DNA of 21,465 nucleotides, from the IMG/VR virus record IMGVR_UViG_3300011013_000115, positions 1 to 21,465 of that record; one strand, written 5' to 3'. Source of the DNA: a virus. A program made the position numbers and the translations under genes. The notes under the pieces were generated by a model. It worked only from the letters and a program-made list of their open reading frames with translations, was not told the DNA's origin and did not search any database. Of this stretch, positions 5,063 through 21,465 are shown in pieces (the stretch's first letter is position 1; the number at the start of each line of letters is the position of its first letter).

Positions 5063-8000
5063 ATGGCTGATCTTCAAATAAGTCAACTGCCTCAGTTAGC
5101 TGAAGCAGATTTGGCGGCTGTAGACGAATTAGCAGTTGTTGACGATAGTGCGTCAGAAACCAAACGAATTACGGCTAAAGCTTTAGTTGAAAAAGGTGTT
5201 GCATTAATTGATGCTGGTTCAATACCTGGTACAGCATTAGGAACTCTTGCTTCAAATGCTGTTACTACTGCATCTATTACAAACAATGCAGTTACAGCAG
5301 ATAAGATTGCGGCTGGTGCGGTAGGTGCTAGTGAGATAGCTGATGGAACAATAACAGCGACAGAAATAGCAGCTAATACTCTGACAGCAAATCAAATAGC
5401 AGCTAATGCCATAGGTGCTTCTGAACTGGCTGATGACGCTGTTGATACTGATGCAATTTTAGATGCGGCTGTTACCAATGCAAAAATCGCAAACGGTACA
5501 ATCGCTTATGCAAAATTAAATATTAATAATGCAGATATTCCTGGTGCAAAACTTGCTGATAATTCAGTAACAGCAGGCCAGATAGCTGCTGATGCTGTTG
5601 GTGCTAGTGAACTTGCTGATGATGCTGTAGATACAAATGCAATAGCGAATTTAGCTGTTACATCAGGGAAGTTAGCTGCTAATTCTGTTACTGCATCTAA
5701 AATAAATGATGGTGTTATTACAGGTGCAAAACTTGTTGCTGACACAATTACTGCTACACAAATAGCGGCTAATGCAATTACAGCTTCTGAATTAGCAGAC
5801 GATGCTGTAGATACAAATGCAATTCTTAATGATGCTGTAACTGCTGCAAAACTTGCGGCAGGTGCTGTCGATACAACAGCTTTAGGAGCAGCGGCTGTCA
5901 CAGGAGCGAAGATAGCTAGTACAACAATTACGGCAGCAAATATTGTAGCTGGCACAATTACAGCTACTGAACTGGCAGCAGGCTCTGTAGGGGCTAGTGA
6001 AATAGCGGCTAACGCTGTTGGTGCTAGTGAATTGGCTGACGATGCTGTAGATACTGCTGCCATAGTTAACTCAGCAGTCACCAATGCAAAGATTGCCGAT
6101 GGAACTATTGCTTATGCGAAATTAAATCTTTCAGACGGTGATATTCCTGCTGCCAAAATTGCATCTAATTCTTTAACTGCAAATCAAATAGCAGCCAATG
6201 CTGTAGGAGCAAGTGAGTTAGCAGATAACGCTGTAGATACAGCAGCTATAGCAGATGATGCAGTTACTGGAGCCAAGATTGCAGCAGCAACTATTGCTGG
6301 AGCAAATATTGCAGCAACGACAATTGCCGCAGGAAATATTGTTGCAAATACAATTACTGCTTCAGAAATAGCTCCTAATGCAATAGGTGCTTCAGAACTT
6401 GCTGATGATGCTGTTGATACAGCCGCTATAGCTAACACAGCGGTAACTGGTGCAAAAATTGCTAATGCAACCATTACAGCGGCAAAATTAAATTTATCAA
6501 ATGGAGATATTGCTGGAGCGAAGATTGCTGATAACTCTCTTACAGCAAGTCAAATAGCAGCCAATGCTATTGGATCTAGTGAACTAGCAGACAATGCAGT
6601 TGACACCAGTGCTATTGCGGATGATGCCGTAACAGGAGCAAAGATAGCCGCAGCGACAATTGAAGGAGCAAATATTGTTACTGGCACAATTACTGCAACT
6701 CAATTAGCTGCCGATTCTGTAGGTGCAAGTGAAATAGCAGCAAACGCAGTAGGAGCTTCGGAACTTGCAGACGATGCGGTAGATACAGCAGCAATAGTAA
6801 ACTTGGCAGTTACAGGAGCCAAGATTGCAAACGCAACCGTTACAGCGGCAAAGTTAAGTTTGTCTGCTGGAGATATCGATGGAACAAAGATTGCTAATGA
6901 TTCACTTACAGCAACTCAAATTGCCGCAAATGCAATCACAGCTAGTGAATTAGCTGATAACGCTGTAGATACTGCTGCTCTTGCTGCTAATTCTGTAACA
7001 GCAGCAAAGATTGCAGCCAACGCAGTAACAGCTTCTGAGCTAGCAGATAATGCTGTAGATACAGCAGCCGTAGCAGATGCAGCAATAACAACAGCGAAAA
7101 TTGCTGATGGAGCAGTTACAGCAGCAAAACTTTCAGGAACAATTGAAGCTGGAACTCTTGCAGATAATGCGGTTACGACAGCAAAAATTGCTGATGATGC
7201 TGTAACAGCAGCAAAGCTTGGAGCAGGTGCAGTTGACACAACTGCTTTAGGTGCAACTTCTGTAACAACTGCAAAAATTGCAGCTTCAGCAGTCACCGAT
7301 GCAAAGGTAGCAACTGGAATTAGTGGAACAAAAATAACTGATGCAACTATTACTGCTGCAAAATTAAACACAGCAAATATAGACAGATCTTTAAATGTAG
7401 CTTCTGGCAGTTTGGGGATCAATAATGTTATTTCGGCTGGAACATCTGCTGGAATAAGTTACAACGCACAGGGCTTAATAACCGCTGCAACTGCACTGGT
7501 AGCAAGCGATTTGCCAGTTGCGACAGCTACGGCAGTTGGTGGTGTTTCTATCGTCAGTTCAGGTGGACTTGCTGTTACAGGAGCAGGTGCTTTATCAATT
7601 GCTGCAACAACGACTGGAGCTACAGCAACAAAGGTCACTTTCAATAATTTCGGTCAAATAACAGGAACAGCCACTCTTGCTGCTTCTGATTTGCCTATTG
7701 CAACTGCTAGTGCTGTTGGTGGTGTTTCTGTTCCTACAGGAGGTCCACTTTCTGTTGATTCAAACGGTGCAATTACAGTTACTGATTCAGGAGTTACAGC
7801 AGGAACAGGAACGAAAGTCACAGTTGACGCAAAAGGAAGAGTCACAACTCTTGCAACGCTTTCAGATAGTGACGTTCCAAATCACAGTGCAGCATTAATT
7901 ACTTCTGGAACTATTGCAACAGCAAGAATTGCAAATGATGCAATTACAGGAGCAAAAATTGCAAATGCCTCAACAACGCTATTTGGTTCTGTAGCTCAGA

Positions 8001-11000
8001 CAGGTTTCCCAAACAGTGAATTTACAGGGCAATTTTTCTTCGATTCTGTCTCTGAAGATTTATATATTTATGATGGTAATGCTTACCAACCAATAACAAC
8101 TTTAACAAAAGGTTCGCTGGTCTTTGGTGGTACTTTTAACGCTGGAACAAGTAAAGTTGCAAGTGTAACAACAGCAGGTGCAGCAGCAGGTTTAAGCATC
8201 GGAAGCAATGTTCCGACTCCTACAAGTTCAACTGATGGTTTATATTTAGTAGTTGAAAATGCTGGAACTCCAAGTGCGCCAGCACCTGTCGTTGCACTTG
8301 CACCACCAGATTATATTTTAGGTGTTACAAATACAGGTGGAAGTTCATGGGAAGAAATTGATCTTTCGCAGACCGTGGCCGGGCAAGTTGCAAGCAATAT
8401 TGTTTTTACTCCATATGGTCAAATTGGAGCAACTAATGTTCAAGATGCACTTCAAGAATTAGAAACAGAAAAGTTAGCACTTGCAGGTGGCACTGTCACT
8501 GGGCAAGTCTTATTTAATAATACTGCAACGCTTGTTTTTGAGGGTTCAACTGTTGACGCATATGAAACAACTTTAGGAGTAGTTGATCCAACTACAGCGG
8601 ATAAAACAATACTTTTACCTAATACTTCTGGAACTTTAATAACACATAACGATAGTGGAACAGTAACCAGCACAATGATTGCTGATGGAACCATTGTTAA
8701 TGCTGACATAAATGCCTCTGCTGGGATTACGCTTACTCGATTAGAAGGCATAACTGCTGCAAAAATAATTGTTGGAAATTCATCAGGGGTTGCTGCTCAA
8801 GTTTCTGTAACAGGTGATATAGCAATATCAAATGCAGGTGTAGTTTCAATTACGGCTAATTCGATTGTTGATGGTGATATATCTGGATCGGCTGCAATAA
8901 CTGGAAGCAAAATAACTACAGGAACTACAAGTGCCGTTGGTGTTCTTCAGTTAACAGATAGTGCAGCTTCAACTTCTGCTACGACTGCTGCTACTCCTGC
9001 TGCTGTCAAGATTGCGAAGGATGCTGCTGATGCTGCTGCTACAACAGCAAATGCGGCGTTGCCGAAAGCTGGCGGCACAATGACTGGCAATTTGATTCTG
9101 GATAATGCTTCGGAATTGCGTTTTACAGAAGCTGATTCAGATGGTGCGAATTACACAGCATTAAAAGCACAGGCACAAGCTTCAGATATAACTCTCACTC
9201 TTCCTGCTACAGCACCAACTGCTAACCAAGTCCTTAAGGCTAATGCCAGCACACCTACCACTCTTGAATGGGCAACTGATACAACCAATACTGCTGCGGC
9301 AGATATAACTGGAACTACTCTTGCTTCCAATGTTGTTGCAAGTTCTCTTACTTCAGTTGGAACTCTTACTTCTCTAACAGTTAGTGGAACAATTACTGGA
9401 GATGTCACTGGAGATCTAACAGGCAACGCAGATACAGCAACAATACTTGCAACTGCAAGAACGATAGGAGGAGTTAGTTTTAACGGTTCAGCAAATATAG
9501 ATTTACCAGGCGTTAATACTGCTGGCAACCAAAACACTACAGGAAACGCAGCTACAGCTACAGCATTAGCAACCGCTAGAACAATAGGTGGAGTTAGCTT
9601 TGACGGAACAGCGAATATCACGCTACCTGGTGTTAATGCTTCTGGTACTCAAGACACTTCAGGTACAGCAGCACTTGCAACTCAGTTCACAGTCACAGCA
9701 AACGACACAACCAATGAAACTGTTTATCCGATTTTTGTAGACGCAGCCACTGGTTCTCAAGGTGCTGAGACAGATTCTGCTTTAACTTACAACCCTTCAA
9801 CTGGGGCTTTAACGACAACTACATTTATTGGGAATTTAACTGGAAATGTTACTGGAACAGCAGATTTAGCAACACAATTTACAGTTACAGCAAATAATTC
9901 AACAGATGAAACTGTTTACCCTTTATTTGTTGACGGAGCAACAGGATCACAAGGAGCAGAAACAGATACAGGTTTAAGTTATAACCCTTCTTCTGGAGCC
10001 TTAACTGCAACATCATTTGTAGGTGCATTAACAGGCAACGCTTCAACAGCAACAATCCTTGCCACAGCTAGAGATATTAACGGTGTTAGCTTTAATGGTT
10101 CTGCTGATATAACAATTACTGCTGCTGCTGGGACTTTAACTGGTGCAACATTGGCTAGTGGAGTAACAGCTAGTTCATTAACTTCAGTTGGAACACTTAC
10201 AGGTTTAACAAGTAGTGGTGATATTAATCTGAACGCTCAAGCAGACCTTCGGTTTAAGGATGCTGATAGCTCTCACTATGTCGCTCTTCAATCTCCTGCT
10301 TCTATTGCAAGTAGTTTTACTCTTACTCTCCCTTCGGCTGACGCTGCTGTTTCTGGCTATGTCTTAGCTAGTGATGGATCTGGAACTTTATCTTGGGTTG
10401 ATCCAGGTTCAACATCATCACCTACATTTACAGGAGATGTAAGTCTTACTAACGATGGAAATTTAGTTGGTTTTGCTGCTTTAAATGGAACATATACAGG
10501 TAACGCAAAAACATTAACGGTTACTGTTGCGAGTAAAACTGGAGCGCATAGATATAACGGTTCTGGATCTAGTTCTGGTTATAAAATTGACGGAAAAGAA
10601 TCACCATTTATAACTCTTACTCCAGGTCGTACTTACAAGTTTGACCAAGCAGACGGTACAAACTCAGGACATCCATTTCGTTTCTACCTAGAAGCAGACA
10701 AGACAACTGCTTACACCACAGGAGTTACTACAAACGGAACTGCTGGATCTTCTGGAGCTTATACACAAATAGTTGTTTCAGACACAACTCCTTCTGTTCT
10801 TCATTATCAATGTTCTGCTCATTCTTTAATGGGCAACGCTGTTCAAACAAATAGCAATGTTGCAGCGGCTGGTCAATTAACTGGAGCAACTCTTGCTAGT
10901 GGAGTAACTGCTTCAAGTTTGACTTCTGTAGGAACACTTGGAAGCTTAAACGTCACTAATAATGTCGTAGTCGGAGGAAATTTAACTGTTAATGGAACAA

Positions 11001-11683
11001 CAACTACAGTTTCAAGTACCACTGTTGAAGTCGCTGATAAGAACATTGAACTTGGTAAGGTAGCAAGCCCATCAGATTCAACAGCAGATGGTGGTGGTAT
11101 TACTCTTGATGCTGGATCTGACGGAGATAAAACTTGGAATTGGGTCAACTCCACCGATGCTTGGACAAGTTCAGAACATATTGATCTTGCAAGTGGAAAA
11201 GTATTAAAGATAAATGGAACACAAGTTCTTGATGGAACTAATTACACAGGCAATGCTGCAACAGCAACCAACGCTACCAATGCAGCAACAGTAACTGGAG
11301 CAGCCCAAACAAACATCACTTCACTAGGAACTCTTAGTGCATTAACAGTTGCAGGGAATCTATTATTTACTGGGACAGGAATGGTTGATCTTCCTAGTGG
11401 AACAACTGCTCAAAGACCTGGCGGTGCAGATAGAGGGGCTATTAGATATAACTCAACTTTAGAAATATTTGAAGGTTATGATAATAATGGCTGGGGTGAG
11501 TTTGGAGGTGGCGGTGGAGCTACAGGTGCAAGTGGTGACAAGGTATTTCTTGAAAACGGACAAAGCGTTACAGCAAGTTATACTTTAACTGCAAACACAA
11601 ATGCAAGCTCTGTTGGCCCTTTGACGGTAAACTCAGGAGTAACAGTGACTATTCCAGCAAACGCTATCTGGGCAATTCTTTAA
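5063..11683 (+). CDS. Giant tail fibre / virion structural protein with decapeptide repeats and cupredoxin-like domain
   Basis: At 2206 residues this is the largest protein in the window. Residues 1-64 ('MADLQISQLPQL...') form a short N-terminal segment like those heading marine cyanophage structural proteins, probably for attachment. Residues 65 to about 769 are some 70 near-perfect ten-residue repeats of the type A-V-T-x-A-K-I-A-x-N. Residues about 770-1000 hold 'ASDLPxAT' and 'VTVDAKGRVT' fibre motifs. A 'TGQFFFD...DLYIYDG' module follows, then 'ALAGGTVTG' and 'LPKAGGTMTG', which are common in phage fibres. 'LATARTIGGVSF' and 'ETVYPxFVDxATGSQG' modules come next. Residues 1827-1930 are cupredoxin-like (H1870, C1917, H1920, M1923). 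After that come an 'ADKNIELGKVASP' module and a 'FLENGQSVTA...NSGVTVTIP' C terminus. The likely role is an elongated host-recognition fibre. A trimeric or solenoid structure is inference. Confidence 0.75.
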   Translation: MADLQISQLPQLAEADLAAVDELAVVDDSASETKRITAKALVEKGVALIDAGSIPGTALGTLASNAVTTASITNNAVTADKIAAGAVGASEIADGTITATEIAANTLTANQIAANAIGASELADDAVDTDAILDAAVTNAKIANGTIAYAKLNINNADIPGAKLADNSVTAGQIAADAVGASELADDAVDTNAIANLAVTSGKLAANSVTASKINDGVITGAKLVADTITATQIAANAITASELADDAVDTNAILNDAVTAAKLAAGAVDTTALGAAAVTGAKIASTTITAANIVAGTITATELAAGSVGASEIAANAVGASELADDAVDTAAIVNSAVTNAKIADGTIAYAKLNLSDGDIPAAKIASNSLTANQIAANAVGASELADNAVDTAAIADDAVTGAKIAAATIAGANIAATTIAAGNIVANTITASEIAPNAIGASELADDAVDTAAIANTAVTGAKIANATITAAKLNLSNGDIAGAKIADNSLTASQIAANAIGSSELADNAVDTSAIADDAVTGAKIAAATIEGANIVTGTITATQLAADSVGASEIAANAVGASELADDAVDTAAIVNLAVTGAKIANATVTAAKLSLSAGDIDGTKIANDSLTATQIAANAITASELADNAVDTAALAANSVTAAKIAANAVTASELADNAVDTAAVADAAITTAKIADGAVTAAKLSGTIEAGTLADNAVTTAKIADDAVTAAKLGAGAVDTTALGATSVTTAKIAASAVTDAKVATGISGTKITDATITAAKLNTANIDRSLNVASGSLGINNVISAGTSAGISYNAQGLITAATALVASDLPVATATAVGGVSIVSSGGLAVTGAGALSIAATTTGATATKVTFNNFGQITGTATLAASDLPIATASAVGGVSVPTGGPLSVDSNGAITVTDSGVTAGTGTKVTVDAKGRVTTLATLSDSDVPNHSAALITSGTIATARIANDAITGAKIANASTTLFGSVAQTGFPNSEFTGQFFFDSVSEDLYIYDGNAYQPITTLTKGSLVFGGTFNAGTSKVASVTTAGAAAGLSIGSNVPTPTSSTDGLYLVVENAGTPSAPAPVVALAPPDYILGVTNTGGSSWEEIDLSQTVAGQVASNIVFTPYGQIGATNVQDALQELETEKLALAGGTVTGQVLFNNTATLVFEGSTVDAYETTLGVVDPTTADKTILLPNTSGTLITHNDSGTVTSTMIADGTIVNADINASAGITLTRLEGITAAKIIVGNSSGVAAQVSVTGDIAISNAGVVSITANSIVDGDISGSAAITGSKITTGTTSAVGVLQLTDSAASTSATTAATPAAVKIAKDAADAAATTANAALPKAGGTMTGNLILDNASELRFTEADSDGANYTALKAQAQASDITLTLPATAPTANQVLKANASTPTTLEWATDTTNTAAADITGTTLASNVVASSLTSVGTLTSLTVSGTITGDVTGDLTGNADTATILATARTIGGVSFNGSANIDLPGVNTAGNQNTTGNAATATALATARTIGGVSFDGTANITLPGVNASGTQDTSGTAALATQFTVTANDTTNETVYPIFVDAATGSQGAETDSALTYNPSTGALTTTTFIGNLTGNVTGTADLATQFTVTANNSTDETVYPLFVDGATGSQGAETDTGLSYNPSSGALTATSFVGALTGNASTATILATARDINGVSFNGSADITITAAAGTLTGATLASGVTASSLTSVGTLTGLTSSGDINLNAQADLRFKDADSSHYVALQSPASIASSFTLTLPSADAAVSGYVLASDGSGTLSWVDPGSTSSPTFTGDVSLTNDGNLVGFAALNGTYTGNAKTLTVTVASKTGAHRYNGSGSSSGYKIDGKESPFITLTPGRTYKFDQADGTNSGHPFRFYLEADKTTAYTTGVTTNGTAGSSGAYTQIVVSDTTPSVLHYQCSAHSLMGNAVQTNSNVAAAGQLTGATLASGVTASSLTSVGTLGSLNVTNNVVVGGNLTVNGTTTTVSSTTVEVADKNIELGKVASPSDSTADGGGITLDAGSDGDKTWNWVNSTDAWTSSEHIDLASGKVLKINGTQVLDGTNYTGNAATATNATNAATVTGAAQTNITSLGTLSALTVAGNLLFTGTGMVDLPSGTTAQRPGGADRGAIRYNSTLEIFEGYDNNGWGEFGGGGGATGASGDKVFLENGQSVTASYTLTANTNASSVGPLTVNSGVTVTIPANAIWAIL
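5255..7370 (+). repeat. About 70 tandem ten-residue repeats inside the giant fibre gene
   Basis: By hand the translation divides into about 70 ten-residue units, nearly all 30 nt long, with consensus [NDG]-A-V-T-x-A-K-I-A-x. Four units are 12 residues long (the 'GDIPAAKIAS' type), starting near 5525, 6131, 6497 and 6863, and two are nine residues. The block 'SELAD[DN]AVDT' occurs ten times. A hydrophobic residue falls every five positions, usually with Ala, Ser, Asn or Asp two residues before it. That spacing resembles the pentapeptide-repeat beta-solenoid. From 6131 a larger unit of exactly 366 nt repeats (6131-6496, 6497-6862, and a third copy from 6863 that later diverges). Confidence 0.9.
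10541..10857 (+). other. Cupredoxin-like domain within the giant fibre protein
   Basis: Residues about 1827-1930 of the fibre protein contain 'LTPGRTYKFDQADGTNSGHPF', a Tyr/Thr/Gly-rich middle, 'GAYTQIVVS' and then 'LHYQCSAHSLMG'. The order His1870, Cys1917, His1920, Met1923 is the type-1 copper ligand order of plastocyanin-like proteins. The C-x2-H-x2-M loop is shorter than in classical plastocyanin (C-x2-H-x4-M). Domains with this signature are, as I recall, frequent in marine phage structural proteins. Copper binding and any redox role are unproven, and the domain may serve only as a structural or binding module. Confidence 0.65.
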
Positions 11684-14673: not shown

Positions 14674-15722
14674 TGGCTACTATAGGTTCTTCTCAAAGGA
14701 TGAGAATGGTTGGCCCAGAGCCACCAGGTACTCCTGATAATTTTGCAGCCACTAAGTCAACAACTGCTAGTAAAACAATAAATTTAAGTTGGTCTGCTCC
14801 TTCTGGCCCTGCAATAGTTACTGGTTATAAACTATCTAGGGCTGGTTCTGTTATTGCAACTCAGGCAGGTACAACGTACACAGATTCAGGTTTAGCTGCA
14901 TACAGCACCAGTTATTCATATTCAGTAGTTGCTTACAACGCAGATGGTGACTCAGTAACACCAGCAACAGCCAGTGCAACTACAAATGCACAGTGCATTC
15001 CACCTGCCACAATTGAACTTGCTGCTGATGGTGATTTGGAAGGTTACAACACATCAGGAAGTAGTCACACAGATTCAAATTTATGGTCAACTAATAGTGG
15101 AAAGACTACTAGTGTAACTATTCCTGATGGTTGTTTTAAGGTAAGCGTTCAGGCTTTAAGTGGTGGTGGTGGTGGTTACAGGTACAGCAATCAAACACAT
15201 CATGGTTCTTGTTATCAAGGCCAAAACAGCGGTGGTGGTGGTGGTGGTGCATATATAAATGCTCAAAGTCCAGTAACACCAGGAACAACAGTCACAGTAC
15301 AAGCAGGGAAAGGAGGTAATAGAGGTTACTCAGGTGGGCCTTCTGGAATAAAAGATGTCATTGCGGTTTACGGAGGTGATCGAGGTTCTAGGTATCCAAA
15401 TGCTAATCCTGGTGGGTATGCACAAGCTGGTGGTTCACTCCCATATGCGCAGGTAGTTGCAGGTGATGCTTCTTCTGGCAGGAATGGTGGTGACGCTGCT
15501 AACGATGGATCTAACCCAACTGGTGTAGCTGGGTGGACTCATTCTGGCGGTGCTGATCAAACTTGCAGTGGTTGCGCTGGTTGCACTGGCCCTAACGCTC
15601 CTGCATTTGGTGGTGGTGGTGGTGCTGGGGGTACAGATAGTGGTTCTTTATATGGTGAAACAGCTTACGCAGGAGGGAATGGTGGTGGTGGATATGCTAG
15701 GGCGGTATTCGCAGAAAGTTGA
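14673..15722 (+). CDS. Fibronectin-III plus glycine-rich protein, probable tail-tip adhesin
   Basis: The 349 residues have two clear parts. Residues about 17-106 are a fibronectin type III domain: 'PPGTPDNFAATKS' start, 'INLSWSAP', 'VTGYKLSRAG', 'YTDSGL', 'YSYSVVAYNADGDS'. Residues about 150-349 begin with a 'VSVQALSGGGGG' strand and become glycine-rich, with Gly runs near 164-168, 187-192 and 313-317, and 'VTPGTTVTVQAGKGGNRG' turns. A C-x2-C-x2-C motif lies at 298-304. Glycine-rich domains of this kind occur in phage distal tail proteins, and some T-even-type adhesins use polyglycine helices to hold receptor loops. The position after the fibre genes agrees. The TAATG junction upstream and the strong ribosome binding site favour ATG at 14673. 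Receptor binding is inference. Confidence 0.65.
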   Translation: MATIGSSQRMRMVGPEPPGTPDNFAATKSTTASKTINLSWSAPSGPAIVTGYKLSRAGSVIATQAGTTYTDSGLAAYSTSYSYSVVAYNADGDSVTPATASATTNAQCIPPATIELAADGDLEGYNTSGSSHTDSNLWSTNSGKTTSVTIPDGCFKVSVQALSGGGGGYRYSNQTHHGSCYQGQNSGGGGGGAYINAQSPVTPGTTVTVQAGKGGNRGYSGGPSGIKDVIAVYGGDRGSRYPNANPGGYAQAGGSLPYAQVVAGDASSGRNGGDAANDGSNPTGVAGWTHSGGADQTCSGCAGCTGPNAPAFGGGGGAGGTDSGSLYGETAYAGGNGGGGYARAVFAES

Positions 15723-16327
15723 TTGTTAAATTAAAAACTAAATTCGATAAAATTCAGCATTTGCATCAGTGGTTTGAAGAAACTTATAATTTTATAATGC
15801 CTGTTTTTTTAAGTCATAATAAATATCCAGAATTAACTTTATCTAACGAGGAATGTAAACAGCTAATAGATCATGCAAATATGAGAGTTTATAATATAAG
15901 AAAAACATTACAACGTGGGTCTAGAGATGTTCATCCAAGCAATGAACTTGCACCTATTCAAAAGATAAAAAACCTAGCATTGGAAGTGAATCGGCTAACT
16001 TATAATTATGATTTAGATGAGCATGATTTTGAATGTATTATTCATAAATTTCAAAATGGAATGGGTTATTGTTTTCATCAAGATATAAATAGTTATAGGC
16101 CATATTGTAAACTTTCAGTAAGTGTTCAATTAAATGATTTAGAAGGTAATACTGGAGGTGATCTGGTCTTTTTTGAAAATGGTAAGCCAGAAGACGATTT
16201 TGTAATTCCAAGGGAACAAGGTGCTGTAACTGTTTTTCCTCCTTTCTTGCATCACAAAGTTTCTACCGTAAAATCAGGAGTAAGAAATTCTCTAGTTTTA
16301 TTTTTTTACGGCCCTAGATTCAAATGA
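15719..16327 (+). CDS. 2OG-Fe(II) oxygenase, prolyl 4-hydroxylase/PKHD-like
   Basis: The 202-residue frame starts on TTG in a 4-base TTGA overlap with the previous stop. A start at the internal ATG (15797) would remove 26 residues before the domain and is possible. The fold signature is complete: an 'LTLSNEECKQLIDHA' start, the metal pair H120-Q-D122 in 'CFHQD', 'LNDLEGNTGGDLVFF', and distal H179 followed ten residues later by R189 in 'HHKVSTVKSGVR'. Such enzymes use Fe(II), oxygen and 2-oxoglutarate to hydroxylate proteins or small molecules. The Arg co-substrate ligand is nearer PKHD/PiuC-type enzymes than animal prolyl hydroxylases. Its substrate is unknown. It overlaps the peroxiredoxin gene by 4 bases (ATGA), so the two are probably made together. 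Confidence 0.8.
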   Translation: MIVKLKTKFDKIQHLHQWFEETYNFIMPVFLSHNKYPELTLSNEECKQLIDHANMRVYNIRKTLQRGSRDVHPSNELAPIQKIKNLALEVNRLTYNYDLDEHDFECIIHKFQNGMGYCFHQDINSYRPYCKLSVSVQLNDLEGNTGGDLVFFENGKPEDDFVIPREQGAVTVFPPFLHHKVSTVKSGVRNSLVLFFYGPRFK

Positions 16328-16839
16328 GAAAAAACGCATTAAACACAGGTTTTTTTGTTAGTTCTTATGAGATGAAGCATCCTGAAGAGAAATATCATGT
16401 ATTTTCAACTAGACAAATAAATCTAAAAGATTTAACACGAAATCGATGTGTAATACTTACTCTACCTGGTGCTTTCACTCCTACTTGCACTTATCAACAT
16501 GTACCTTCCTTTGAAGACAAGTATGATGAAATACGATCTTACGGTGTAAATGAAGTTTATATTTTAACTATCAATGATTTTTTCACTCAACGAGTATGGC
16601 TTGATGCAATGGGTATTACAAAATTAAAGGCTATTAGTGATATGGAATTAGTTTTTGGAAATAATTTAAACAATGCTATTTATAGAGATGAGTTAGGAGT
16701 AAGAAACCAACGTGAAATATTAGTCTTTGATAATTGCAAAGTAGAAAAACGATTTACAGAGGTATATGAAAGCAATATTCACGACCCTTTTGATAAAACT
16801 AAAGTAAAAAACTTGTTGGATTACCTAAAAACCCTATAA
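16324..16839 (+). CDS. Peroxiredoxin (Prx5/redoxin-type)
   Basis: This 171-residue protein carries the peroxiredoxin active-site motif 'PGAFTPTC', with T52 and peroxidatic C55. Matching downstream features are 'YILTINDFFTQRVWLDAMGI' and the Prx5-like 'YRDELGVRNQREILVFDN' with conserved Arg near 127-130. Family members reduce hydrogen peroxide or organic peroxides in the cytoplasm, using thioredoxin, glutathione or similar. Two further cysteines, C42 and C138, are present, and C138 in 'FDNCKVEK' is a candidate resolving residue. The length is typical of the family. It is unusual beside phage tail genes and overlaps the upstream oxygenase by 4 bases. A link to oxidative stress in a photosynthetic or oxygen-rich host is plausible but inferred. 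Confidence 0.85.
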   Translation: MRKNALNTGFFVSSYEMKHPEEKYHVFSTRQINLKDLTRNRCVILTLPGAFTPTCTYQHVPSFEDKYDEIRSYGVNEVYILTINDFFTQRVWLDAMGITKLKAISDMELVFGNNLNNAIYRDELGVRNQREILVFDNCKVEKRFTEVYESNIHDPFDKTKVKNLLDYLKTL

Positions 16840-16863: not shown

Positions 16864-17055
16864 ATGTCTACTATCTCTGAATTAGACGCTGCTGTTGAAG
16901 AATACAACGGTGTCGTTAAAAGACAGCAAGAAGCAAACAAAGCTGAACTTCAGCCTCTTGCAGTAAGAATCCAAGAATTACAAGGCAAAATTATCAACGA
17001 AGCTAGAGAAGCTGATCAAGCACCTGTTGACGGTGGTGAGGCTTGCCCTGCATGA
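16864..17055 (+). CDS. Small coiled-coil protein
   Basis: This 63-residue acidic protein is mostly a predicted helix. 'ISELDAAVEEYNGVVKRQQE' and 'LQPLAVRIQELQGKIINEA' show heptad-like spacing of Leu, Val and Ile. It has no membrane segment and ends in a short Gly/Pro/Cys tail. It begins after a 24-base gap, the largest in this block, and overlaps the following membrane-protein gene by 4 bases (ATGA). I recall similar small genes near cyanophage fibre genes, without known function. It may pair with the two membrane proteins that follow. Confidence 0.6.
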   Translation: MSTISELDAAVEEYNGVVKRQQEANKAELQPLAVRIQELQGKIINEAREADQAPVDGGEACPA

Positions 17056-17258
17056 TAAAAATCATAACTTGGATTAATTTCGCTGCCTTCATCTTGGGGG
17101 TAGCGAGTTTAGGTGGTGCATTTATTTTTAGATCAAAAATCTTTGATGCAGTACTAGATGGCGTTAAGAAAGAACTTCCTTCTTTAGTTCAAGATGCAAT
17201 GCCAGAAATGCCCAAAGTGCCTGAGATGACTGGTCCTGTGCTTCCGTTCGGCAAATGA
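17052..17258 (+). CDS. Small single-span membrane protein
   Basis: I chose the ATG at 17052, which forms a 4-base ATGA overlap with the upstream stop and has GGTGAGG about ten bases before it. A TTG three codons earlier is less likely. The 68 residues start with a hydrophobic segment ('WINFAAFILGVASLGGAFIF'), then a charged amphipathic helix ('KIFDAVLDGVKKELPSLV') and a Pro/Met-rich end. It is probably anchored in the inner membrane with the helix on one face. The coupling to a coiled-coil gene and another membrane protein suggests a small complex. A role in lysis or exclusion cannot be told from sequence. Confidence 0.6.
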   Translation: MIKIITWINFAAFILGVASLGGAFIFRSKIFDAVLDGVKKELPSLVQDAMPEMPKVPEMTGPVLPFGK

Positions 17259-17812
17259 TTCAATTTAAATCATTTAACGGCCTGACTTCTTTAGTGTTAG
17301 GCGGTGGACTCATTGCCACCAATTTCATGAGCTTAAACATGTTGGCTCGTAAGGACTCAGGCATCCCTGATATAGCCAAGCTTTCTAATACTCCTTACAG
17401 CAGTCTTCAAATTAGAAGTGAAAAAGGTGCTGATGGTGCAGAAGAGTGGAGTTTTGCTAGTCGTCAACACGATCCAAAAACAATGCTCCAGTATGAAACC
17501 AGTGAAACTCCTACGTTTAATAAAGGTGTAAAGACTAAACATATTCATAAAGAATCTGTTGCTCAGTTCATTACATATCCGCAAGGCTCAGACGGTAAAT
17601 TAACGGCAAAACAGATCGAATGTATTGAAAAACAAGCCCAAGGACGCAGTAATGGACAGATGATTGCTGATGCTGCTTCAGTTCAGGTGACACCAGCCAT
17701 AGCGAACGTACCTATAGTTGGCCCCGTCCTGGCAGGGATTTTCTTTGGTCAGGCTAGAAAACAAGTAGGAAGTGCAGCTAGTGATCTTGCAGGGCAATGG
17801 AATGATTGTTAG
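17255..17812 (+). CDS. Unrecognised protein with two hydrophobic segments
   Basis: This 185-residue protein starts in an ATGA overlap with the preceding membrane-protein gene. A hydrophobic stretch at residues about 9-27 ('GLTSLVLGGGLIATNFMSL') could be a membrane anchor or uncleaved signal. A second lies near 152-168 ('IANVPIVGPVLAGIFFG'). Between them is a polar region with 'TPTFNKGVKTKHIHKESVAQ' and a Gln/Lys-rich helix containing one Cys, and the last residue is another Cys. I do not recognise the family. Its place in an overlapping three-gene set suggests it works with the two small proteins upstream, probably at the membrane. Confidence 0.55.
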   Translation: MIQFKSFNGLTSLVLGGGLIATNFMSLNMLARKDSGIPDIAKLSNTPYSSLQIRSEKGADGAEEWSFASRQHDPKTMLQYETSETPTFNKGVKTKHIHKESVAQFITYPQGSDGKLTAKQIECIEKQAQGRSNGQMIADAASVQVTPAIANVPIVGPVLAGIFFGQARKQVGSAASDLAGQWNDC

Positions 17813-17814
17813 TT

Positions 17815-18393
17815 ATGCGATTAGCTACTTATATTTATTATCCAAATTTTTTATCAAAAGAAGAATGTAAAAGGATAGTAAAAGAAGGAACAATTAATTT
17901 AGAGAAAGGAAAGATTAATCCTGCAAGTCCACATAAGCTTGAAGAAGTAAGGGATACAAAAGTCTCTTTTATTAATGAAGGTAGTGTCGTACAAGATTTA
18001 ATGATAAAAATTATGAAACGTCTAGATTCCTGTGCTTCTAAGTATTATGGGTGTGATTTAACATATACAGAACCTATTCAATATGCAGAATATACAAAAG
18101 GGATGTTTTACAATTGGCATACAGATTCAGTAACAAAAATAAATGATCCGCAAAACTTAAAAAGAGATATATCTGCGTCTTTGATTTTAAATCACAGTAA
18201 AAAATATACAGGAGGTTCTTTAGAACTTATTACAGGTGCATGTAAATATACAAAAGATACGATTATCCCAGAAAAAGCAATTGATCAAGAACAAGGAACT
18301 TTAATTGTTTTTCCATCATCAATGCTTCACCGAGTTACTAAAGTAAAATCAGGAGTAAGAAAATCTTTAGTTTTATGGTCTGCTGCTAAATAG
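17815..18393 (+). CDS. 2OG-Fe(II) oxygenase, PKHD/prolyl hydroxylase-like
   Basis: I prefer the ATG at 17815, two bases after the previous stop, to the TTG at 17806 inside the upstream gene. The 192-residue product has the full metal and co-substrate set: H102-T-D104 in 'YNWHTD', H172 in 'SMLHRV' and R182 in 'KVKSGVRKSLV'. A 'YTGGSLEL' turn lies between them, and the opening is 'YPNFLSKEECKRIV'. The His-to-Arg spacing equals that of the oxygenase at 15719, so the two are probably distant paralogs. It should hydroxylate a peptidyl or small-molecule substrate with Fe(II) and 2-oxoglutarate. The next gene, which starts in a TAGTG overlap, begins with a proline-rich segment and is a candidate substrate, on position alone. 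Confidence 0.8.
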   Translation: MRLATYIYYPNFLSKEECKRIVKEGTINLEKGKINPASPHKLEEVRDTKVSFINEGSVVQDLMIKIMKRLDSCASKYYGCDLTYTEPIQYAEYTKGMFYNWHTDSVTKINDPQNLKRDISASLILNHSKKYTGGSLELITGACKYTKDTIIPEKAIDQEQGTLIVFPSSMLHRVTKVKSGVRKSLVLWSAAK

Positions 18394-19199
18394 TGGAATT
18401 AAATCCTCCTTTTATAAACGAGCCAAAGGTTAAAGATTTACCAGAACTAACAATAATTCCTCCTGCGGAAATAATCCCTCCAACTACTTTTGGTCAATTA
18501 CCGTTTGGATTTGTCCCAATTATTGAACTTCCTTGTGTTGTAGCCAGAGATAAAAAGACAGGTACAGGTAGTGAAATGTTTAATGTAGATCCCGAAAACA
18601 ATCTCACAGTATGCGATTTTGCTCCTCCCATGTACATCGCCCCTGATCTCTATGCTGATATTGCGCCACCAAAACCTAATACTGATTTAGTAAAAAATTT
18701 AAACAATGTAGGAGAGGAAGTGAAAGAGGATAATGGAAAAAGTGACGAGGAGAGCAATTCCAACGTAGGTCAACAAAATACAAACACCTCAAATATTGAT
18801 GGACAGTTTATTGCAGAAGTCTTGCCCTGCCCACCATTAGACACACTTGCTAAAACTCCTATTGGTTCGTTAGGCAAAGGAGGACTTGCAAGAATTAAAG
18901 GATGGAGAAGAGATCAAGTAACAAATAAATGTGAAACGGTATGGGAAGGTTTAAACCCACTTGAAATAGCAGGTAATTATTCTCCCCCCGTTCCCTTACT
19001 GGTTTCTACAAGTGCAATAGCTGTCACCAGTATTCTTGCTGTTGGCACTTTGCAGCCCTACATAAAAATCGTACAAAAACAGATTCAGAAGCAAATTAAA
19101 AAAAGATCTAAAAAACTTGCAAAGAGTTTATTCAAGAAGAAGGAGAAGTTATTGTCCCTTTCTGAAAGGAGAAAGGCTCAGAGGGATCTTCGGAAATAG
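18393..19199 (+). CDS. Proline-rich, single-span protein with basic C-terminal tail
   Basis: The GTG start overlaps the oxygenase stop by one base. The 268 residues open with a proline-rich segment ('NPPFINEPKVKDLPELTIIP', then 'PPAEIIPPTTFGQLPFGFVP'). Single cysteines follow in 'ELPCVV', 'LTVCDF', 'VLPCPPL' and 'TNKCET', with an acidic Asn/Ser-rich linker near 105-135. Residues about 197-222 are hydrophobic and probably span a membrane. The last 45 residues are strongly basic ('KQIKKRSKKLAKSLFKKKEK'). I recall cyanophage proteins with a similar ending of unknown role. The 3' end overlaps the opposing minus-strand gene by 68 bases. It may be a virion or membrane protein, but I do not recognise a function. 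Confidence 0.6.
   Translation: MELNPPFINEPKVKDLPELTIIPPAEIIPPTTFGQLPFGFVPIIELPCVVARDKKTGTGSEMFNVDPENNLTVCDFAPPMYIAPDLYADIAPPKPNTDLVKNLNNVGEEVKEDNGKSDEESNSNVGQQNTNTSNIDGQFIAEVLPCPPLDTLAKTPIGSLGKGGLARIKGWRRDQVTNKCETVWEGLNPLEIAGNYSPPVPLLVSTSAIAVTSILAVGTLQPYIKIVQKQIQKQIKKRSKKLAKSLFKKKEKLLSLSERRKAQRDLRK
19132..19199. other. Tail-to-tail coding overlap of convergent genes
   Basis: The plus-strand basic-tail protein ends at 19199, and the minus-strand secreted protein ends at 19132. For 68 bases both strands code: the plus frame gives a Lys/Arg/Leu helix, the minus frame a Ser/Pro/Phe-rich end. No hairpin terminator is visible between the two blocks, so transcripts from both sides probably run into each other. 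Confidence 0.75.
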
Positions 19200-19854
19200 A
19201 GTGATTGTGATCTATTAAGGTATTAGGTTTGCTGACTAACTCAATGTCGAGGCATAAAATTTCGTATTTTGAACCTTTTTTAAAGCGAACTCCATTCTTC
19301 AATAGATCTGCACAATGCTTTGCACGTCCCAATTCATAGGATAATCGTGCGTCTTCGTGCTTTGCTTGTAAAAGGTTTACTAAATGCACTTGACCTTCCC
19401 TGCACTTTCGGACGCTTTTCCTATCTAGATTTACATTAAAAGATAAACTTATGCCAGGGCTAATTGCAAAATTAGTCTTTTCAAATCTTTGTACTGTTTT
19501 ATATCCACGAATCAATGTTGGGTCGTCAACTTCTCCGTCACCTATTTCATTTCCGTTCTCATCTGTAGCTCCTTTTATATCTTTAGTTGAATAGATAGGC
19601 TCAAGGAAACTGTCAACCTTGGGTAACCCTCCAGAATAATTTCCCATCAAAAAAGGTTGAACAACCAAGGTATCGCCTTGGCATTGAACTTGATTTAATG
19701 ATAAAGTATTTGTAAATTGTTTACTCGCATAATTCATGACCCCAATATTTGATACCGACCCGGAACTATTACTTACCGGGTTATTAGTCATGTTTGTATC
19801 TGCAATTACAGGACTATTTATTAACAATAATGTTGCAAATAAATATTTGTTCAT
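19132..19854 (-). CDS. Putative exported protein, unrecognised
   Basis: This 240-residue protein begins with a classical signal peptide: Lys near the start, 'LFATLLLINSPVIA' and likely cleavage before Asp19. The mature N terminus is Asn/Ser-rich ('NNPVSNSSGSVSNIGVMN'), a start I associate with uncharacterised cyanophage proteins. Four cysteines lie in 'VQCQGD', 'RKCREG', 'KHCADL' and 'EILCLD', enough for two disulfides in the periplasm. The middle carries an acidic loop ('GNEIGDGEVDD') and beta-type stretches ('ISPGISLSFNVNLD'). The start overlaps the oxygenase stop by 4 bases (ATGA). It is probably delivered to the periplasm or outer surface during infection. The function is unknown. Confidence 0.6.
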   Translation of the reverse strand: MNKYLFATLLLINSPVIADTNMTNNPVSNSSGSVSNIGVMNYASKQFTNTLSLNQVQCQGDTLVVQPFLMGNYSGGLPKVDSFLEPIYSTKDIKGATDENGNEIGDGEVDDPTLIRGYKTVQRFEKTNFAISPGISLSFNVNLDRKSVRKCREGQVHLVNLLQAKHEDARLSYELGRAKHCADLLKNGVRFKKGSKYEILCLDIELVSKPNTLIDHNHSISEDPSEPFSFQKGTITSPSS

Positions 19855-20465
19855 TTTTTAAGATAGTTGAAAGCTAATGAAATTCTATTCTTTTTGCTTT
19901 TATTTTTTCCTACAGAATGTTCGACATGTGAAGGGAATATAAATACGTCACCAACTTTAGGCTCGAAACTTACTGTTTCAAATGTAAATTCAGAATCTTG
20001 TTTTATATCACCGTATGTTGCATAAAGAAATAAATCAGTCTGTCCTTTCCCCATAATTAAGCATCCACTATCTTTAGGTACTTCTAAATAAACACATCCT
20101 GATAAAATGCCTTTTGGGTGATTATGAAAAACATTAAAAGAATTTGGCCCATTAATGTTGAGCCATGTGTCACTAAGATTTATTTTTCCTTTCCATGTGG
20201 TTCCATAGATGGTTTGACTAATACTATCAATCGTTTTCATCAATTGAATTAAATTAGTATTTTTATGTTTTAAAAAGTCTAAGTTATTAGATTGATAAGC
20301 ATGTTTTCCTTGGTTACTTATAGATCTTCCTTTATCTTCTGATTTTATTTTTAAACATTCATCGATAATATTTTTTATGCTTAAATTTTGTTTTTTTAAT
20401 TCTTCTAAAATATTAATTTTCCAAACAGGAGTTGGAAATAAATAAAAGCTATTAATGTCGTTCAT
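19851..20465 (-). CDS. 2OG-Fe(II) oxygenase-like protein (TIGR02466-type)
   Basis: This 204-residue protein opens 'LFPTPVWKI' and has W101 in 'DTWLNINGPNSFNVFHNHP', 'LSGCVYLEVPKDSGCLI', 'PKVGDVFIFPSHVEHSV' and 'NRISLAFNY'. This is the layout of the putative 2OG-Fe(II) oxygenases of the TIGR02466 type. The likely metal ligands are H114 or H116 and H183, with R194 as co-substrate ligand. The first motif reads H-N-H-P, not H-x-D as in the other two oxygenases of the window. It lacks a signal peptide although the other complete genes of its operon have one, so it acts in the cytoplasm. Overlaps of 4 bases on both sides show translational coupling. The substrate is unknown. Confidence 0.7.
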   Translation of the reverse strand: MNDINSFYLFPTPVWKINILEELKKQNLSIKNIIDECLKIKSEDKGRSISNQGKHAYQSNNLDFLKHKNTNLIQLMKTIDSISQTIYGTTWKGKINLSDTWLNINGPNSFNVFHNHPKGILSGCVYLEVPKDSGCLIMGKGQTDLFLYATYGDIKQDSEFTFETVSFEPKVGDVFIFPSHVEHSVGKNKSKKNRISLAFNYLKK

Positions 20466-20884
20466 TGAGTAAATGTTGACATTGTTTCTGTAACAGATTC
20501 GGTAAGAATATCTCTACTAATTCGGGTAAACGATTTTAAGCCTGGCCCATGATAACTTTCAAGGAGGTTTGTAGCTGCTCCTTGAGTGTGCATCGTGACT
20601 GTAGGTTTAGTATTAAGGTCAATCCCGTGATGAGTAGTAGTAATTCCATCAACTGTGTGAGTACCTGTAGTAACTGTTTTAGGTAACATATCGCCTTGTA
20701 TTGATAAGTTTGAGCCACCAACAGAATATTCATATCCTGTCGAATATGACCAAGATTCTATTAACTCAGTTGTATTTTGTTTGCTCTCAGTTCTTGCTGT
20801 AGTAGACCCTGAATTAAATCCAGGGATAACAGGGACTGCTTGTGCTGGAACGGATAAAAAGATAAAAAATAATATATAACGCAT
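20462..20884 (-). CDS. Small exported protein, unrecognised
   Basis: This 140-residue protein has a signal peptide ('RYILFFIFLSVPAQA', cleavage after AQA) and a mature part rich in Thr, Ser, Gly and His. 'GTHTVDGITTTHHGIDL' and 'TVTMHTQGAATNLLESYHGP' contain several histidines. There are no cysteines and no membrane span after the signal. The ATG overlaps the stop of the upstream gene by one base (TAATG), with AGGTGA just before it. The stop overlaps the oxygenase start by 4 bases. It is probably a periplasmic or surface protein. I recognise no family. Confidence 0.6.
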   Translation of the reverse strand: MRYILFFIFLSVPAQAVPVIPGFNSGSTTARTESKQNTTELIESWSYSTGYEYSVGGSNLSIQGDMLPKTVTTGTHTVDGITTTHHGIDLNTKPTVTMHTQGAATNLLESYHGPGLKSFTRISRDILTESVTETMSTFTQ

Positions 20885-21396
20885 TAATCACCTATCGATA
20901 AAGATGAAGTTATTGATCCAGTTACAGATGTCCCGGACTTGCCTGCGGTGAGTCCTATTGTGCCACCAGAAACTGACGTAATAGTAGCTGCCAGCCCGGT
21001 GTTATCACCCCCAGTGTATGAGATCGTATCTCCCAACATTGGAAGTGATCCGATAGCACCATTACTCAAGGTTGTTGCACTTGGAACATCATCACCTTGA
21101 ATAAATGTTTCACTAAAAGTTGTAGCTGCCCCGGCGGTTGTCTGAGTATACGAACCTGAACCATGCGTTGCAGCAACTCCTGTTAAAGAGTTATTTGATG
21201 CTGCTGGAACGTCTAAATGTCCCATTGTTCCTGCCGTTACTCCAGAGCTACTCATAGAATATGTACTTCCGATGCGTTTTGCGTGAGAATAACTTCCGTC
21301 AACTGACGCTTGCGCTGTAGCCGTGATCTTATGGGTGATGCCTCCAGCATGAACTGGGGCTGCTAATAAAAGCAAAAGGGGAATGAAGCGTTTCAT
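20884..21396 (-). CDS. Small exported Ser/Thr/Gly-rich protein
   Basis: This 170-residue protein starts with a clear signal peptide ('KRFIPLLLLLAAPVHA', cleavage before Gly-Gly). The mature chain is low in charge and rich in Ser, Thr, Gly and Ala, with likely beta strands ('HKITATAQASVDGSYSHAKR', 'GDTISYTGGDNTGLAATITS', 'GTIGLTAGKSGTSVTGSITS'). It has no cysteines. The composition resembles adhesin or fibre-like beta proteins. I recall relatives in cyanophages near fibre and oxygenase genes, without assigned function. The ATG overlaps the upstream partial gene by 4 bases (ATGA). It could coat the host surface or be a virion protein, although a cleavable signal favours export in the host. Confidence 0.6.
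   Translation of the reverse strand: MKRFIPLLLLLAAPVHAGGITHKITATAQASVDGSYSHAKRIGSTYSMSSSGVTAGTMGHLDVPAASNNSLTGVAATHGSGSYTQTTAGAATTFSETFIQGDDVPSATTLSNGAIGSLPMLGDTISYTGGDNTGLAATITSVSGGTIGLTAGKSGTSVTGSITSSLSIGD
20888..20893 (-). promoter_or_regulatory. Ribosome binding site for the 140-residue exported protein
   Basis: On the minus strand AGGTGA stands three bases before the ATG at 20884, inside the end of the preceding gene. It is a good Shine-Dalgarno match at slightly short spacing and supports this start. Confidence 0.45.
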
Positions 21397-21465
21397 GTAA
21401 GCTTGCCTGTTTGTGGATCTACTTCCTTGCCAGAAATAGGATCAATGCGTGGTTTATCTGGTACT
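21393..21465 (-). CDS. C-terminal end of an unidentified protein (partial)
   Basis: At the window edge a minus-strand frame reads 'VPDKPRIDPISGKEVDPQTG' and then KLT before a TGA that overlaps the next ATG by 4 bases. The overlap pattern matches the other junctions of this operon, and the 'DPxSGKxVDPxTGKL' wording looks like a real protein end. Only about 23 residues are visible, so function cannot be stated. The gene and the operon promoter lie beyond the window. Confidence 0.5.
   Translation of the reverse strand, partial: VPDKPRIDPISGKEVDPQTGKLT

Follow-up and report, generated by a model that had tools for sequence, protein, structure and literature searches.

A convergent two-arm gene cassette of marine cyanophages in a siphovirus-like genome, with a possible late role at the host envelope

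T4-like cyanophages carry a cluster of hypothetical genes (T4-GC 218/219/234/235/237) together with a gene labelled 'plasmid stability' (T4-GC 414; Sullivan et al., 2010; PMC3037559), and no functional study of this gene set was found in the literature searched. Here we describe the set as a two-arm cassette at the right end of the 21,465-nt IMG/VR virus record IMGVR_UViG_3300011013_000115 (positions 1 to 21,465, the whole stretch being referred to below as the window). Through the records of S-SSM5 and S-SM1, T4-GC 218 corresponds to DUF6450, 219 to PHROG605, 234 to PHROG570, 235 to PHROG848, 236 to PHROG650, 237 to PHROG564 and 414 to PHROG568. The window has PHROG564, 650, 848, 570, 605, 568 and the end of a DUF6450 gene, the same families in the same order and with the same convergence, with homologues of GC 219, 234, 235 and 237 (PHROG605, 570, 848 and 564) in adjacent positions. 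The cluster of Sullivan et al. (2010) belongs to T4-like myoviruses, whereas the left part of the window encodes siphovirus-like tail proteins and fibres, so T4-like phages are not its only carriers. The two also differ in that the DUF6450 gene of the window lies upstream of PHROG564 on the same strand rather than at the head of arm 2, that PHROG848 of the window starts at an ATG of its own and that two oxygenase genes are inserted there. The large gpJ-like tail protein of the window matched five records in the phage collection, all from Synechococcus siphophages (S-LBS1, S-CBS3 and S-CBS1), and a search of the window against phages at the DNA level gave zero matches.

While the hypothetical gene cluster of T4-like cyanophages is already known (PMC3037559), its presence in a siphovirus-like genome is new, as is a four-gene core (DUF6450, 650, 848 and 570-like) in the T7-like P-SSP7 and P-SCSP2. 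Also new are a late-promoter motif at the start of both arms and a selective signal for an out-of-frame PHROG848 start inside PHROG650, both in T4-like cyanophages, and the absence of a free-standing peptidoglycan hydrolase of six families from all eight cassette bearers searched, against its presence in four of five other cyanophages. Taken together these features suggest, tentatively, a cassette expressed late that acts on the host envelope, most likely breaching it for progeny release (lysis/egress).

The conserved unit comprises DUF6450 (two transmembrane segments, TM), PHROG564, PHROG650/DUF6322 and PHROG848, converging on PHROG568, PHROG605 and PHROG570, with hydrophobic segments throughout. 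Its identity as a conserved unit is close to certain, and it is near-universal, being found in the majority of viruses that infect marine photosynthetic bacteria. In Syn9, gp167-gp166-gp165 (PHROG564, 650 and 848) face gp164-gp163-gp162-gp161, and both arms are syntenic and convergent in Syn9, S-IOM18, S-TIM5, S-PRM1, S-SSM5 and S-SM1. PHROG848 and PHROG570 are convergent in 100 of the 102 loci encoding both, with their 3′ ends overlapping antisense in 87 of the 100 convergent pairs (median 98 nt), and genome-wide searches of S-PM2, S-CREM2 and P-SS2 found PHROG650, 848 and 570 to be jointly absent. The PHROG564, 650 and 848 proteins matched 227, 403 and 420 phage records by tblastn, nearly all named Synechococcus, Prochlorococcus or cyanophages. 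A scan of genome contigs for a host origin gave no cyanobacterial chromosome; the four contigs that it returned belong to non-cyanobacterial assemblies and have their genes in a phage-like order. One contig (L063; NZ_RMVE01000006.1, titled Nonlabens xiamenensis, 188 kb) carries the full cassette beside hsp20 and regA, as in T4-like cyanophages, and looks like a cyanophage contig within a bacterial assembly. An IMG/VR contig of 38934 bases (L009/L057-L058) has two non-identical 564-650 copies, one at each end, and may be two strains joined or a real duplication. The preliminary description of this DNA had proposed a self-contained host-envelope cassette on the minus strand. The envelope-directed exported set is indeed conserved, PHROG564, 650 and 848 recurring together in other marine phages without the oxygenase between them, but the set continues beyond 19132: the 3′ end of its last gene runs antisense to that of PHROG570, which belongs to a second, plus-strand arm.

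The N termini of the 170-, 140- and 240-aa proteins (PHROG564, 650 and 848) each have one or two K/R residues and an 8-residue core (mean hydropathy 2.95-3.09), followed by VHA, AQA and VIA respectively, and the same anatomy check found none of these features in the oxygenase, in agreement with the preliminary description. For the counterpart of the 140-aa protein in P-SSP7, GenBank notes 'possible SignalP'. Although previously called unrecognized, the three match PHROG 564, 650 (= Pfam DUF6322) and 848/1755 with E values from 5e-31 to 3e-43. In the mature chain of PHROG848 four cysteines (C40, C133, C163 and C183) are invariant in 59 relatives. Only the last 23 residues of the DUF6450 protein are in the window (VPDKPRIDPISGKEVDPQTGKLT to the stop), nearly identical to VPDKPRIDPISGKEIDPQTGKLT at the same end of a podovirus relative, the full protein of which matches DUF6450 at 5.5e-30. 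In arm 2 of the window, PHROG570 has a proline-rich N-terminal part, a hydrophobic segment at residues 202-220 and a basic tail, PHROG605 has a C-terminal cysteine that is also present in Syn9 and S-IOM18, and PHROG568 has one strong hydrophobic segment (residues 8-26, mean hydropathy 2.01). The name 'plasmid stability' given to PHROG568 has led to proposals of cassette mobility and pseudolysogeny (PMC3037559; PMC9602691). The label looks unfounded, the homologues of PHROG568/T4-GC 414 being proteins of 68-90 aa that have a single hydrophobic segment and match nothing in Pfam.

The late promoter of cyanophages has been described as NATAAATA (PMC2984593). In T4-like loci the exact 7-mer ATAAATA was sought within 60 nt upstream of genes and was found before PHROG564 in 33 of 74 loci and before DUF6450 in 35 of 61, against an expected 2-3%, with no occurrence before the five internal genes or regA. 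Since the motif precedes PHROG564 and DUF6450 and never the internal genes, the two arms are probably two late operons in T4-like cyanophages.

A reduced form of the cassette is found in T7-like podoviruses. The IMG/VR contig with the closest PHROG650 homologue (97%) is a T7-like podovirus. It encodes an RNA polymerase and tail, capsid, portal and terminase proteins, and its terminase shares 75% identity with the P-SCSP2 (Prochlorococcus phage) enzyme. P-SCSP2 and P-SCSP1u encode DUF6450, 650, 848 and 570-like (phrog_9426) proteins, and the same four are genes 042-045 of P-SSP7; in all three phages this core lies between the tail and terminase genes. The corresponding slot of coliphage T7 holds holin and spanin genes. 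As in the window the four genes are adjacent, but no 564, 605 or 568 was seen in these phages, the proteins are shorter and those of P-SSP7 are all encoded on one strand. As for the two transmembrane segments and charged C terminus that mark a two-TM (class II) holin, hydrophobic segments lie at 29-47 and 64-82 in P-SSP7_043 (GenBank note '2 transmembrane regions'), whereas in the DUF6450 homologues of the podovirus contig and P-SCSP2 the first segment alone passes the hydropathy threshold. Syn5 gp55-gp58, alike in size and position, were considered as the same four-gene block and rejected, having no cassette PHROG match and no signal peptides; gp58 is a structural protein.

The presence of the cassette was compared with that of six Pfam hydrolase families in 13 cyanophage genomes. 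Eight bear the cassette (Syn9, S-TIM5, S-SSM5, S-SM1, S-IOM18, P-SSP7, P-SCSP2 and P-SCSP1u) and five were counted as cassette-less, namely S-PM2, S-CREM2 and P-SS2 by genome-wide search, S-CBS3 from its annotation and its not being among the tblastn matches listed, and Syn5 from five genes tested within the matching region alone. None of the eight had a free-standing peptidoglycan hydrolase of these families, against four of the five (S-PM2, S-CREM2, P-SS2 and S-CBS3; open frames of 169-419 aa), with a Fisher p of 0.007 for this small sample of related genomes, such that the cassette would tend to exclude free-standing endolysins. S-CBS3, a relative of the window by its tail protein, has a lysozyme after the fibre module. 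No phage lysozyme was found in eight cassette-bearing IMG/VR contigs, most of which are fragments, and the cassette proteins of the window have no hydrolase match in Pfam or PHROGs.

The exported proteins are apparently not part of the virion, an argument drawn from record labels: in S-SM1, the virions of which have been analyzed, cassette proteins carry no virion label whereas orphans found there by mass spectrometry do, and the S-SM1 and S-TIM5 records label the cassette proteins hypothetical rather than virion-structural. Structure prediction for PHROG848 (59 sequences) and PHROG650 (30 sequences) gave low-confidence models (mean pLDDT 58 and 67), and a Foldseek search against the PDB found nothing significant (best E 0.22); the list was rich in beta-hairpin pores and ring proteins, none of them significant, and was not used as evidence. 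Matches in BFVD were mainly cyanophage orphans, some named Gp165, and sequence searches of the PDB found nothing. Nor did any cassette protein match the anti-phage defence models of PADLOC-DB, a library that does not cover phage exclusion genes, the oxygenase giving weak generic 2OG hits.

Taken together, the late motifs, export, apparent absence from the virion, lysis slot and negative association with endolysins favour a breaching of the envelope as infection ends. DUF6450, PHROG568, PHROG605 and PHROG570 would be small membrane proteins in the inner membrane, the Sec-exported PHROG564, 650 and cysteine-rich 848 would assemble in the periplasm or outer membrane, and both arms would act late to breach the host envelope so that progeny exit. 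Composition, convergence, conservation, signal-peptide anatomy, the T4-like late motifs and the T7-like lysis-slot position are read directly from sequence; where the proteins reside, how they assemble and that they breach the envelope we infer from these with somewhat less than even confidence. Several points weigh against this reading and limit its strength. The cassette proteins have no lysis-family match, and structure prediction failed to give confident models or PDB fold matches. The promoter evidence comes from T4-like relatives and not from the window, and late motifs suit virion proteins equally well. Several cassette-bearing phages have hydrolase domains in large open reading frames (at least 918 aa), presumably virion-associated, Syn5 is without a hydrolase of the six families and also without the cassette in the stretch examined, and the 13 genomes are few and related, with six hydrolase families covered.

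Three exported and several membrane proteins with wide conservation would also suit superinfection exclusion or receptor masking, in which the exported proteins would cover or alter the exterior of the infected cell and so block adsorption or injection by further phages. In T4, however, the exclusion genes imm and sp function early, and a late step is the better match to the late motifs that precede both arms in T4-like relatives, while strict conservation over tail types is unlike a receptor-specific function, making this explanation unlikely. In cyanobacteria the thylakoid lumen is another destination of proteins with Sec signal peptides, and remodelling of the host there or in the periplasm, altering photosynthetic membranes or nutrient uptake, would be in keeping with a cassette restricted to phages of marine picocyanobacteria and with the many photosynthesis genes of cyanophages; as the proteins resemble no family of photosynthesis or transport, and given the podovirus lysis-slot position and the late motifs, we consider it improbable. 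That the products are structural parts of the virion or help to assemble it, for instance as a decoration or an appendage put together outside the cytoplasm, would account for the late motifs, for the neighbouring tail genes in the window and podoviruses and for the beta-rich character of PHROG650 and 564. Signal peptides and invariant cysteines argue against a virion role, as do the hypothetical labels in S-SM1 and S-TIM5 and the sharing of the cassette by contractile, non-contractile and short-tailed phages. In addition, the cryo-EM model of P-SCSP1u comprises capsid, portal, adaptor, nozzle and fibre only (PMC10575957), and this role likewise seems unlikely.

The oxygenase between PHROG650 and PHROG848 exceeds the curated cut-offs of TIGR02466 and PF13759, upholding its earlier assignment, and is about 30-32% identical to the best isolate-phage proteins among the matches listed, differing from these cyanophage oxygenases in its placement inside the exported cassette. 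It had been suggested that the cassette is wrapped around this gene and that its product hydroxylates the proteins before export. Start-stop overlaps on both sides of the gene would be in keeping with such a pairing with all three exported proteins. Among loci from 38 close IMG/VR relatives and 80 more distant ones, 113 besides the window encode both PHROG650 and PHROG848, and a gap of more than 150 nt between the two is found in one of the 114, the window alone, where the inserted gene is the oxygenase. As the sole such insertion it is not part of the conserved unit. Oxygenases of the 2OG type lie within the cassette in 6 of 107 loci, the five besides the window having them at other junctions, and one cyanophage genome has 24 of them at dispersed sites (PMC9602691). 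A functional pairing is thus very improbable, and the gene is almost certainly a passenger confined to this genome, with ATGA junctions on both sides preserving its translation, PHROG650 and PHROG848 being joined by a single ATGA in close relatives. The second oxygenase (phrog_61) occupies a position between PHROG605 and PHROG570 that is also taken by related oxygenases in three other loci (L023, L029 and L039). At 15719-16839 (plus strand), just upstream of the cassette, a third 2OG-Fe(II) oxygenase gene overlaps a peroxiredoxin-like gene (PF08534/PF00578) by 4 nt, so that three oxygenases lie in a 5-kb stretch.

The junction between PHROG650 and PHROG848 differs in T4-like cyanophages (loci L067-L146, n = 80). 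In all 80 an ATG of the PHROG848 frame, which is the -1 frame of PHROG650, lies within PHROG650 at a constant distance from the PHROG650 stop, and 7 have another start codon between this ATG and the PHROG848 signal-peptide region. The A of the ATG comes from TCA, ACA, CAA or AAA before an invariant TGG, TCA making up 9% of nearby serine codons. All 80 T4-like PHROG650 genes have an open -1 frame, against 17% expected by synonymous resampling, and none of 33 genes in the lineage of the window does; the 80 loci are related and are not a count of independent events. These patterns suggest apparent selection on the out-of-frame start, from which Syn9 gp165 is already annotated in GenBank and which replaces a frameshift or non-AUG start as considered for PHROG848 in T4-like phages. 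The PHROG848 signal peptide would then carry a long N-terminal extension at these loci, and a clean insertion at the junction would be impossible because PHROG848 starts inside PHROG650.

Coordinates and sequence bear out four complete minus-strand open reading frames with junctions overlapping by 1 or 4 nt (Table 1), the overlaps from the DUF6450 end to PHROG848 being 4, 1, 4 and 4 nt. Just upstream of PHROG568 a 63-aa gene (16864-17055, plus strand) has 76-98% identity to genes in L022 and L039 and no PHROG match. Further to the left a 2206-aa fibre-like protein (5063-11683, plus strand) with many near-identical short repeats (NAVDTAAIADDAVTGAKIA...) is probably a long repetitive tail fibre.

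Table 1. Cassette genes and inserted genes at the right end of the window.
Feature	Position	Strand	Basis
DUF6450 (T4-GC218-like, two hydrophobic segments), C-terminal end; first gene of arm 1, cut by window end	21393..21465	-	
PHROG564 protein, 170 aa, signal peptide ending VHA	20884..21396	-	phrog_564 5.2e-31; signal-peptide anatomy
PHROG650/DUF6322 protein, 140 aa, signal peptide ending AQA	20462..20884	-	phrog_650 1.8e-35; PF19847 1.3e-24
TIGR02466/PF13759 2OG-Fe(II) oxygenase, 204 aa, cytoplasmic	19851..20465	-	85.8 bits against TIGR02466 cut-off of 62.5
PHROG848/1755 protein, 240 aa, signal peptide ending VIA	19132..19854	-	phrog_848 3e-43
Antisense overlap of the 3′ ends of PHROG848 (-) and PHROG570 (+)	19132..19199	.	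coordinates
PHROG570 protein, 268 aa, end of arm 2	18393..19199	+	phrog_570 7.3e-20; hydropathy
Second 2OG-Fe(II) oxygenase, between PHROG605 and PHROG570	17806..18393	+	phrog_61 3.2e-34; PF13640 9.1e-16
PHROG605 protein, 185 aa, two hydrophobic segments	17255..17812	+	phrog_605 5.9e-14; hydropathy
PHROG568 protein, 68 aa, first clearly conserved gene of arm 2	17052..17258	+	phrog_568 2.9e-7

Cyanophages are major killers of Prochlorococcus and Synechococcus, and P-SSP7 042-045 provide a specific four-gene candidate, while the case of the window warns that an adjoining oxygenase should not be taken as functionally tied to the genes around it. More doubtful than a late action on the envelope is the wider proposal of a lysis/egress system shared by marine cyanophages of all three tail types, in which exported and small membrane proteins would open the cyanobacterial envelope without a dedicated soluble endolysin, unlike holin-endolysin-spanin sets; if true, it would explain why many abundant cyanophages have no recognizable lysis genes. 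With regard to the lipobox cysteine of a spanin (Rz/Rz1), PHROG564 and 650 of the window have no cysteine and 848 has none at the signal-peptide cleavage site. Compared with the holin-endolysin-spanin modules of T7 and lambda, the cassette has no lysis-family match, endolysin or lipoprotein o-spanin and has instead three exported soluble-type proteins, whereas it resembles them in its podovirus genome slot, its small TM proteins, its exported partners and, in T4-like relatives, its late motifs.

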